64,000 nt of DNA from Methylomusa anaerophila (GTDB taxonomy: Bacteria > Bacillota > Negativicutes > Sporomusales > Sporomusaceae): contig NZ_AP018449.1 of assembly GCF_003966895.1 (NCBI RefSeq), positions 3,985,501 through 4,049,500 on the forward strand. Direction: 5' to 3'. Under the pieces are notes generated by a model. That model had not been told where the DNA came from and did no database searches. It saw only the letters and a program-made list of their open reading frames with translations. Positions 11,658-60,612 of the stretch are shown one piece after another; position 1 is the first letter of the stretch, and every line of letters starts with the position of its first letter. The translations under genes were made by a program, and so were the position numbers.

Positions 11658-11849
11658 GAACTGCTTAGAAATCGTCAGATACCGTTGCATATGAAAAAAA
11701 CTTATTGTAATGATATTTGCTAATTAGACTTCGAACTATCATAGTCAGACCGTAGGCGCGACGAGGACCGCAGCGGAGGCGTACTGGCGGTACGTTGGAG
11801 CGAGGACCACAGAAGCAACGACGCAGATGGCGGTTTATAAGCAGTTCCC
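11658..11849 (+). repeat. Palindromic intergenic repeat, family A, copy 1 (interrupted)
   Basis: Left arm GAACTGCTTAGAAATCG (11658-11674) and right arm CGGTTTATAAGCAGTTC (11831-11847) form an imperfect long inverted repeat. The core contains CGCAGCGGAGGCGTACTGG and ends with AACGACGCAGATGGCGG. Compared with the copy at 52375, about 70 bp is inserted between the left arm and the core (roughly 11681-11750). The insert is flanked by the imperfect direct repeats GTCAGATACCG and GTCAGACCG. No coding capacity is seen. Confidence 0.75.
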
Positions 11850-21788: not shown

Positions 21789-21865
21789 CGGGGCGTAGCT
21801 CAGTTTGGTAGAGCGCTACCTTGGGGTGGTAGAGGCCGCACGTTCAAGTCGTGTCGCTCCGACCA
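21789..21865 (+). tRNA. tRNA-Pro(GGG)
   Basis: The 77-nt sequence folds as a cloverleaf. Acceptor CGGGGCG pairs with CGCTCCG, D stem GCTC/GAGC, anticodon stem CTACC/GGTAG with loop TTGGGGT (anticodon GGG, G37), T stem GCACG/CGTGT with loop TTCAAGT. The discriminator is A and CCA is encoded. It reads CCC and CCU proline codons. It is a single tRNA with its own promoter and terminator. Confidence 0.95.
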
Positions 21866-26798: not shown

Positions 26799-26821
26799 TT
26801 TGGATGGCAGGTGATTTTGAG

Positions 26822-27025
26822 ATGCCGATTTATGAATTTCAATGCAATCAATGTGGTATGACTTTTGATCAACTCTGCCGGATAAACTGGCAGGGCTCGG
26901 TAAAATGCCCTTCCTGTGGCAAGGAAGATTTAACGAAAATAATCTCACAGGTTAGTGGGCTTGGCCGAGGCGCAGGTGATCATTGCAGTTCCTGTTCAGG
27001 AAAAAGTTGTAACGGCTGCAACTAG
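26822..27025 (+). CDS. FmdB-family zinc ribbon protein
   Basis: This 67-residue protein starts MPIYEFQCNQCGMTFDQLC and has a second pair in VKCPSCGKEDL, giving the CxxC...CxxC zinc ribbon of the FmdB regulatory family. The C-terminus adds a second Cys-rich tail (CSSCSGKSCNGCN) that could bind more metal. The ATG at 26822 fits the family start. A longer reading from 26804 includes the AGGTG site. The TAG stop (27023-27025) is the end of the MITE-like element starting at 27022, so that insertion may have set the C-terminus. Confidence 0.87.
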   Translation: MPIYEFQCNQCGMTFDQLCRINWQGSVKCPSCGKEDLTKIISQVSGLGRGAGDHCSSCSGKSCNGCN

Positions 27026-27186
27026 TACCTCATCTGCATTAAAATCTCTGCTAATTTAGCGGTCTTTTTCCGTCCTGCTTCGTTATCGTTGCCTTGCATA
27101 TTCCCGATATGCAAGGCTCCTCCGCCTTGCAGGCCAGAAAAATCCCTGCTAAATTAGCTATCGTTTTAACACAGATGAGGTACTAG
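27022..27186. repeat. MITE-like element, family B, copy 1 (165 bp)
   Basis: A 15-bp perfect terminal inverted repeat CTAGTACCTCATCTG (27022-27036) is mirrored at 27172-27186. The interior is palindromic over most of its length (for example GCTAATTTAGC and GCTAAATTAGC). It shares blocks such as GCAAGGCGGAGGA, CATATCGG and AACGAAGCA with the 163-bp copy at 48448 when reverse-complemented. It has no coding capacity and lies between the zinc ribbon gene and the spoVM promoter. Confidence 0.85.
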
Positions 27187-27237: not shown

Positions 27238-27244
27238 ATATAAA

Positions 27245-27272
27245 ACGACTAACGACTAACGACTAACGACTT
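27245..27272. repeat. Four tandem 7-bp ACGACTA units
   Basis: ACGACTA is repeated three times and followed by a fourth unit with one change (ACGACTT). It is in the probable spoVM leader. Confidence 0.8.
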
Positions 27273-27319: not shown

Positions 27320-27394
27320 GTGAAATTTAGATTTTACGTTGTGTCAGTGCCAGGACCACTGCGAAAAATAATGCGCTTATTTTGGAAAGGATAA
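27320..27394 (+). CDS. spoVM: stage V sporulation protein M (24 residues)
   Basis: SpoVM is a tiny amphipathic helix that senses the curvature of the forespore membrane and anchors SpoIVA there. This GTG-started frame encodes 24 residues and has AAGGGGG 8 nt upstream. Its part FYVVSVPGPLRKIMR aligns without gaps to FYTIKLPKFLGGIVR of the 26-residue Bacillus subtilis protein. The proline at 11, leucine at 14, isoleucine at 17 and arginine at 19 are retained, and the former two-residue offset comes from an extra N-terminal pair. A sigma-E-like -10 box precedes it and a strong terminator follows 17 nt after the stop. Its partner spoIVA is at 15690. The Bacillus sequence is recalled, not searched. 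Confidence 0.8.
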   Translation: MKFRFYVVSVPGPLRKIMRLFWKG

Positions 27395-43394: not shown

Positions 43395-43645
43395 CCTTAT
43401 ATTGTTATGGTAATGACGGAGACATTAGCCTCAGATTTATAGGTTACAGCGAGCCGGCGGAATGGTGGAAGCCCGGTTATACCTTGTCTTTGGTGAAAAT
43501 CACTCCTGAACTGCGAACCGAATTTTTCAGGTAGGCTTCGCCGTTTGACGCCCGTTAGCGCGTTGAAAGAGCTGCAATACTGTAGCAAATAGGGTGGTAC
43601 CACGGGATTGACCTCTCGTCCCTTGCGGGATGCGGGGTTTTTATT
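43395..43645 (+). promoter_or_regulatory. T-box riboswitch (tRNA-Ile) before ileS
   Basis: The leader holds a stem I region with GACGGAGACATTAG and GCGAGCCGG. The probable specifier is ATC (43499-43501) followed by a purine, reading tRNA-Ile(GAU). The conserved T-box AGGGTGGTACCACG lies at 43591-43604. A terminator with stem CCTCTCGTCCC against GGGATGCGGGG is followed by TTTTTA (43611-43645). Uncharged tRNA-Ile should stabilise the antiterminator and switch ileS on. Confidence 0.92.
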
Positions 43646-48391: not shown

Positions 48392-48447
48392 GGAGCGTGT
48401 TTCAAAAAACACGCAACCATAATGTAGGTAAGGGTGGTTCAAAATGC

Positions 48448-48610
48448 CTAGTGGCCTGTCTACATTGAAAGCGTAAATGAATTCGCGGGAATTTTTTCGC
48501 AAGGCGAGGCGGAGGAAGCGCACATATCGGACATATGTAAGCTGACGACAACGAAGCATGGCGGAAAAAGGCCCGCGAAGTAATTATGATTTCAGTGTAG
48601 ACAGACCACT
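48448..48610. repeat. MITE-like element, family B, copy 2 (163 bp)
   Basis: Terminal inverted repeats CTAGTGGCCTGTCTACA (48448-48464) and TGTAGACAGACCACTAG (48594-48610) differ at one position, and the pairing continues to GAAA/TTTC. Inside is a GCGGG/CCCGC arm and a core with GGCGGAGGAAG, CATATCGGACATATG and ACGACAACGAAGCA. The copy at 27022 is homologous. It lies inside the family A repeat listed next. Confidence 0.85.
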
Positions 48611-48715
48611 AGATGCTAGGCGCGATGAGGACGTGAGCGGAACAGTACAAGTAAGTACGTGAAGCGATCGCCCGCAAGGAGCAACAACGCAGATGGGCGT
48701 TTTGAAACAGCCTTG
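48611..48715. repeat. Family A repeat, copy 3, core and right arm
   Basis: Starting just after the family B element, ATGCTAGGCGCGATGAGGAC leads to CAACAACGCAGATGGGCG and a right arm TTTTGAAACAGCC. A matching left-arm remnant (GGTTCAAAATGCC at 48436-48448) lies on the other side of the family B element. Confidence 0.65.
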
Positions 48716-48735
48716 ATAAGGAGCGAGCTTACCTA

Positions 48736-50281: not shown

Positions 50282-50409
50282 GGAACTGCTTAGAAACCGC
50301 CATCTGCGTTGTTGTTCCTGCGGTCCTCACTACAGCGTACGACCAGTACGCTTCCGTTCCGGTCCTCGTCTCGCCTAGCATCTGGCAGTTTCTAAGCAGT
50401 TCGTGGCAT
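50282..50409. repeat. Family A repeat, copy 2 (minus orientation)
   Basis: GGAACTGCTTAGAAACCGCC (50283-50302) and GGCAGTTTCTAAGCAGTTC form the outer arms. The core contains CATCTGCGTTGTTGTTCCTG and CGTACGACCAGTACG. Relative to the copy at 52375 it is reversed. It separates convergent pyrR and rqcH and could terminate both. Confidence 0.8.
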
Positions 50410-52374: not shown

Positions 52375-52496
52375 GAACTGCTTAGAAATCGCCAGATGCT
52401 AGGCGTGACGAGGAGCACAGCGGAGGCGTACTGGGATGTACGTTGGAGCGAGCACCGCAGGAACAACGACGCAGATGGCGGTTTATAAGCAGTTCC
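52375..52496. repeat. Family A repeat, copy 4 (reference copy)
   Basis: The left arm GAACTGCTTAGAAATCGCC and right arm GGCGGTTTATAAGCAGTTC are an almost perfect inverted repeat. The core reads GACGAGGAGCACAGCGGAGG, then GTACTGGGATGTACG, and ends GAACAACGACGCAGATGG. It sits between rqcH and the P-type ATPase. The rest of the 325-bp gap is the divergent promoter region, without ORFs. Confidence 0.8.
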
Positions 52497-60416: not shown

Positions 60417-60469
60417 TTTTTATGCGGATATAAATTAAAATTTTTATGGTGTAAATTACATATTCAATT

Positions 60470-60612
60470 CTCATCAAGAGTTGGTGGAGGGACTGGCCCG
60501 ATGAAACCGCGGCAACCCTTGGGCGGCAAATTGCCCAAAACGGTGCCAATTCCTGCGGATTTCCGCAAGATGGGAGAGTGACAAAATCACCTCCCTTCGG
60601 GAGTTTTTTTAT
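60470..60612 (+). promoter_or_regulatory. SAM riboswitch (S-box) before metK
   Basis: The leader contains the S-box core ATCAAGAGTTGGTGGAGGGA, then GACTGGCCCGATGAAACC, GCGGCAACC and GGTGCCAATTCCTGC. The expression platform ends with CTCCC/GGGAG around TTCG and TTTTTTT. High S-adenosylmethionine should close the aptamer and terminate transcription before metK, which makes SAM, so this is direct feedback. Confidence 0.96.

Follow-up and report, generated by a model that had tools for sequence, protein, structure and literature searches.

A putative IS630-type MITE with a conserved and apparently portable 79-nt hairpin core, located at the stop codon of an FmdB-like gene in Methylomusa anaerophila

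The window analysed here is a stretch of 64,000 nucleotides from Methylomusa anaerophila (NZ_AP018449.1, positions 3,985,501 to 4,049,500). It contains an FmdB-like zinc-ribbon gene and, at the 3′ end of this gene, a short palindromic sequence termed element A. Two covariance models of the core of the element were used, R1 and R2, the latter built solely from the window's phylum, Bacillota; E-values are from a shortened calibration. The features of the locus, in window positions, are as follows.

26804–27025, + strand: FmdB-like zinc-ribbon gene, assigned by homologues; the probable start is at 26822, outside of the element
27022–27186, + strand: element A, CTAG to CTAG, 165 bp, from family search, terminal repeats and fold
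27022–27036, + strand: left terminal inverted repeat, CTAGTACCTCATCTG, also scored by the IS630 end profile
27023–27024: left TA target duplication, within CTAG, from boundary variation over 61 elements and from empty sites; they coincide with the initial TA of the TAG stop codon of the FmdB-like gene
27025–27183, + strand: element A proper, inside the TA copies
27064–27142, + strand: 79-nt conserved core hairpin with its pyrimidine strand on + (R1 88.7 bits, E 4e-20; R2 81.6 bits, E 5e-19)
27172–27186, − strand: right terminal inverted repeat, complementary to the left one without mismatch over 15 bp, also scored by the IS630 end profile
27184–27185: right TA target duplication, from boundary variation and empty sites

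An earlier note on this DNA had described the element as 165 bp long from CTAG to CTAG, with perfect 15-bp inverted repeats, mostly self-complementary and non-coding, and it is so in each respect. The sequence CTAGTACCTCATCTG is present at both ends, and arms of 48 nt, which are 77% complementary, continue inward from the 15-bp repeat. The DNA fold has an energy of −45.2 kcal/mol, whereas shuffled sequences average −12.5 (z −13). There is no open reading frame of 60 aa or more inside the element and no transposase gene. A comparison with Rfam gave no family above its gathering score, and an Rfam-family RNA was rejected as its identity. Downstream of element A is a 24-codon open reading frame (VKFRFYVVSVPGPLRKIMRLFWKG) at 27320–27394 (+), a sequence that likewise follows the FmdB-like gene in two related genera (genomes G003 and G007). 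Between the two are short tandem ACGACTA heptamer repeats (27242–27270), which are absent from the aligned relatives. The + strand of the window also carries a T-box leader (43404–43626), a SAM riboswitch (60468–60576) and a tRNA (21789–21862).

The 4.78-Mb genome has five places with the end type of element A and approximately 24 more that share only its middle, i.e. about 30 dispersed copies. The earlier note had proposed a genome search with both window elements; in targeted searches the two are not sole copies at identical sites in distant relatives, which the note had named as evidence against a mobile family. Twenty-three of the 24 own-genome copies examined are outside long open reading frames. 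The proposal of a CTAG-ended MITE family is upheld by the dispersed copies together with the empty orthologous sites and IS630-like ends described below, and the family occurs in several taxonomic families of the window's class. Copies of the A type differ from one another by 7–10% and so give no sign of recent movement of this type. The second window copy is termed element B.

48448–48612, − strand: element B, same family, end type CTAGTGGYCTGTCTAC, 165 bp
48492–48570, − strand: core hairpin of element B (R1 95.1 bits; R2 91.2 bits)

Element B had been given a length of 163 bp, which should read 165 bp. It had also been described as matching element A in reverse complement; this holds for the 79-nt core that the two have in common, but not for their ends, which differ. 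Element B is represented by five copies in the genome, with 92–100% identity, and copies of the B type are up to 99% alike. A side-by-side reading of the own-genome copies shows at least five end types.

End type A: CTAGTACCTCATCTG
End type B: CTAGTGGYCTGTCTAC
End type C: CTAGTGGTCTGTAAACCCTAATTC
End type D: CTAGTACTCTGCGTCACC
End type E: CTAGTACCTTGTTACC

One copy (L012, G000:C1:1037026-1037189) is chimeric and displays a D-type left arm and an E-type right arm around one core; arms therefore seem to recombine between copies. Palindromes of about 50–70 bp without the core exist as well, and adjacent elements sometimes have one CTAG in common.

The window also contains a second MITE-like family, one copy of which is interrupted by element B, the others in the window being uninterrupted. 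Copies of this second family are at 50286–50391 (−), 52386–52492 (+), 11753–11844 (+) and about 48395–48735. The ends of this family differ (GGGAACTGCTTAGAAA... in two copies). Its interior, AGGCGnGACGAGGA ... AACAACGCAG, resembles the core of the first family by eye, and one copy scores only 13.7 bits with R2 (E 0.62).

Many end types flank one 79-nt core at nearly fixed spacing, and most of 59 full-length elements measure 163 bp between and including their terminal TAs. In these elements the mean pairwise identity is 0.80–0.86 in the core and 0.46–0.52 in the arms, a contrast that is somewhat inflated by the collection of most copies via the core, although searches with the ends only also yield mostly core-bearing elements. 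The core consists of an outer stem, a near-invariant internal loop and an apical hairpin. With 29 diverse cores, two-sided changes are seen in 12 of 25 base pairs and the covariation score is 0.211, where slid controls do not exceed 0.076. A phylum-wide set of 46 cores gives 20 of 25 pairs and 0.472, with controls of at most 0.101; this second alignment was adjusted to the structure and so favours the score.

The internal loop, TTCGTTGTCGTC facing CTCCTCCGCCTC, is purine-rich and mostly non-complementary, and is among the best conserved parts of the core. Template switching at palindromes can yield covariation in stems without selection. It is less fitting here because the internal loop should then also have become palindromic, and it has not. 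A possible reading of the loop, on the purine strand with a one-base shift, is a series of repeated G-C, G.A and A.G steps. In one element (L295, 730–892) the apical stem is replaced by a different self-complementary sequence and the internal loop is retained. Rfam holds no family that corresponds to the core, and no earlier description of the core strings or of a shared MITE core was found in the full-text literature, a body from which subscription papers are mostly absent.

Plain blastn detects a match in 15 of 60 relatives. R1, run on 398 genomes from the window's phylum, detects the core in 17. The R1-positive genomes have many elements of 158–164 bp with CTAGT ends, and others with different ends. 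The cross-phylum sample was picked for containing IS630, so the frequencies in it are not general. R2 finds the core in genomes as well as plasmids of Streptomyces (best E 8.9e-15), in Pseudonocardia (E 3.4e-4) and in a Candidatus Aegiribacteria MAG (E 3.6e-5); there are 67 matches in an Oscillospiraceae MAG and 53 in a Selenomonas MAG. A single match in a 2.17-Mb Neisseria gonorrhoeae record (E 1.5e-4) is a Correia element. At 2.17 Mb, two records labelled as gonococcal plasmids (NZ_CP119140.1 and NZ_CP119142.1) resemble chromosomes.

The ends in these distant hosts include TAGGGCCTGTCCGGCGGATCA, TTAGACCGACCGGCAATTGGGGG, GCCTAAGGGCTGTCCCGTAATT, TAAGGAACTG and TATAGTGGATTAA, and those of the Streptomyces elements are TAGGGCCTGTCCGG. 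Two annotated Streptomyces cases have a neighbouring IS630 gene whose stop codon is overlapped by the repeat. An element on a Cupriavidus megaplasmid displays the apical hairpin of Correia under other ends. Because the ends differ in Streptomyces and the other distant hosts, the core looks like a portable module, judging from the sequences. A plasmid collection searched with the window elements gave no match, as did E. coli genomes searched with one relative and phages searched with a Correia query (checked against N. gonorrhoeae records). In viral contigs, matches to a 17-base core string look like chance hits in coding sequence; a two-part loop pattern finds three elements.

The chances appear about even for a wider proposal. 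Here unrelated ends would surround a single hairpin module, CTGCGTTGTCGTC-[apical hairpin]-TCCTCCGCCTTGCAG on the pyrimidine strand, in MITEs of at least three phyla (the window's, Actinomycetota and Pseudomonadota), and this module would be the selected common part of elements that have been described singly, including Correia. It may aid transposition, or a widely conserved host factor may recognise it. Against this stands the possibility that the interior is decayed filler, and that the likeness to the Streptomyces and Correia elements is a convergence of GC-rich hairpins that satisfy the model. A model rich in hairpins may pick up other hairpins, Correia elements score only modestly (20–33 bits), and the arms also remain complementary without evident function. 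However, convergence does not readily account for the E-value of 8.9e-15 in Streptomyces, where plain blastn with a more distant relative gives 86–90% identity over 50 bases on plasmids, nor for a non-complementary loop that is retained in sequence. The model is also selective: an unfiltered R2 scan of 100 kb of gonococcal DNA places at its top (33 to 19.8 bits, the next hit at 17.0) exactly the five Correia elements found by blastn, and a scan of the window returns elements A and B and then only noise. Filler with convergence is thus rather unlikely, and a conserved core kept on changing ends is the preferred reading.

A CGTC-tagged REP hairpin captured in a MITE is a much poorer candidate for the origin of the core. 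The pyrimidine strand does have GTCGTC directly 5′ of the apical hairpin, and tagged REPs, with CGTC or GTAG, are likewise dispersed intergenic hairpins, the CGTC type being known in several phyla (PMC3733652). The REPs, however, are 20–40 bp, consist of a tag and a short hairpin and lack IS630 ends; in the CGTC type the stem is 8–9 bp, starts with AT pairs and mostly has a CCA tail at the end (PMC3733652). The core has neither such a stem nor the tail, and its conserved block spans both sides of a long internal loop. This identity was rejected.

The termini indicate the type of transposon. Of 61 full-length elements, 14 have a base outside the terminal TA that departs from CTAG; on the inner side, the left TA is always followed by G and the right TA always preceded by C. 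The boundary finder, which demanded TA and scored G slightly higher, favours this invariance a little. For example, a deviating copy has aTAG at the left and CTAc at the right, which implies an original target aTAc. No candidate 4-bp duplication fits the deviating copies among these elements. The target duplication is thus TA, and CTAG is the preferred target. The title of Tenzen and Ohtsubo 1991 (cited in PMC2170065) states the same for IS630, i.e. a TA duplication with a preference for CTAG.

An IS5-type MITE comparable to MITEPsy1 of Pseudomonas syringae would display CTAG as a 4-bp target duplication. MITEPsy1 is similarly short and non-coding, and duplicates CTAG or YTAA (PMC3189936), so that CTAG at both ends of element A would agree with it. 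In the deviating flanks, however, the left side stays xTAG and the right side CTAy, and the two 4-bp copies disagree. Also, MITEPsy1 has IS5-like ends (GGAAGGTCTGAAAAAGCC), whereas the ends here match IS630 elements. The IS5-type identity was rejected as very improbable.

The likeness to IS630 was scored with a profile built from 70 insertion-sequence ends. MITE ends have a mean of 10.1 bits compared with −16.5 at background TAG sites of the window, and 97% of 118 MITE ends exceed the 99th background percentile. For each end of elements A and B, approximately 0.1–0.2% of background sites score equal or higher. An insertion sequence of the IS630 family (NCBIfam NF033545) is present in the genome in three copies, with ends CTAGTGTAGTGACATATTGATATTT and CTAGTGTATCGACACGTTGATATTT; this resident element has CTAGT at both ends and CTAGTGTAGTGACATATTG ends, which differ from the A type. 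Relatives of its transposase are found at 80 loci in many phyla, and most of those with located ends start and finish with CTAGT. Several pairs of insertion sequence and MITE agree at 17–19 of 21 end bases, and a MITE of a viral contig agrees with an IS630 of G001 at 20 of 25. No insertion sequence exactly matching the A-type ends was found among the located IS630 ends, some IS630 fragments being without locatable ends, nor were A or C ends found paired at the spacing of an insertion sequence. Judged by its sequence, i.e. short, gene-less, with inverted repeats, a TA duplication and IS630-like ends, element A is an IS630-type MITE.

The TAG stop codon of the FmdB-like gene (27023–27025) is within the target CTAG of element A. 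The earlier note took this as a sign of insertion, with the element supplying the stop codon. The stop codon does not, however, indicate that the element truncated the gene, as the FmdB-like homologues in G003 and G007 terminate at about the same residue as the window gene, and in G007 a TAG, then CAT, is at the position equivalent to the window stop. The site of element A is empty in both genera, where the gene continues directly into the intergenic sequence and small open reading frame found 3′ of the element in the window. When the window sequence is joined across element A it aligns through the junction (GGCTGCAACTAGCATGG versus GGCTGTAAATAGCATTGGG in G007). Because of this alignment with the empty sites the stop codon is ancestral in position; the insertion hit the CTAG of the stop codon and restored TAG. 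Two other elements also have empty sites: L282 of G004 in the same-genus genomes G005, G006, G008, G010 and G011, and L063 of G001 in the same-genus G005 and G006.

By position, the ends of three further elements of the genome (L017, L027 and L028) overlap the TAG stop of a neighbouring open reading frame as in the window, and so do those of L431 and L432 at 1502. On Streptomyces plasmids, the stop codon of an IS630 gene lies under a repeat end that is of a different type. Insertion into cTAG stop codons may be common. The least probable reading, that the element is not mobile and serves the upstream gene as a fixed regulatory RNA or a terminator, would suit the strong fold and same-strand position after the gene, but was rejected on the empty sites (as to origin), the copies at unrelated loci, the lack of an Rfam family at threshold and the A, not T, that follows the core hairpin on both strands.

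Among known systems, RUP of Streptococcus pneumoniae (IS630-Spn1; PMC2229807) is similar in being gene-less, with IS630-like inverted repeats, a TA duplication and many intergenic copies. The window family differs in that one conserved, covarying core of fixed size carries several end types; no such core was found described for RUP in the literature consulted (PMC2229807). Correia (CREE/NEMIS) of Neisseria is also a palindromic MITE with TA termini, its ends being TATAGTGG... (PMC2649163, PMC2229807). Its core is the first picked by R2 in gonococcal DNA, with modest scores that could reflect either descent or convergence. Correia differs in end sequence beyond TAGTGG, in length (about 105 or 155 bp) and in the apical stem sequence; its terminal repeat TATAGTGGATTAA... 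is absent from the window element ends, which differ beyond TAGT. Correia hairpins in mRNA are bound by RNase III and can be cut, and long ones bind IHF (PMC2649163, PMC2229807).

The reading that we prefer, with a probability of about 0.8, is a non-autonomous IS630-type transposon at CTAG with a portable 79-nt core that is kept as the ends change and is probably recognised as a folded single strand. An IS630-family transposase would act in trans, recognise the ends (TAGT...) and excise the element, which would then insert at the TA of a CTAG and duplicate TA; a cTAG stop codon would survive this. Mobilisation of this type is supported by the anatomy of the termini. Since the core is kept while ends change, its selected property would not be binding by one transposase. 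Our preferred view, from the pattern of conservation, is that the core may act as a folded single strand, as RNA in the first place (by read-through from the neighbouring gene) and as single-stranded DNA in the second. Element A is probably transcribed, because a gene on the same strand precedes it. The copies and their ends, the TA duplication, the empty sites, a core conserved in both structure and sequence, and its presence in several phyla are observed; the transposase responsible, continued movement and the binding partner of the core are what we infer.

What is known at this locus is the IS630-type MITE, and what is unexpected is the conserved portable core, whose presence beyond the family was unnoticed in the first reading of the sequence. 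The interiors of MITEs are usually regarded as decayed filler, and Correia is the best-studied bacterial MITE. In the present elements it is the ends that change and the interior that persists, in different genera and classes and probably in different phyla, the stems varying by compensatory changes and the loop being near-invariant. For annotation, the family accounts for about 30 loci in the genome and for harmless hits on cTAG stop codons. If the relationship is true, Correia, which binds RNase III and IHF, would be linked to a large set of undescribed elements. The covariance model lets such elements be found, and the question of why bacterial MITEs retain a structured core would become directly testable.
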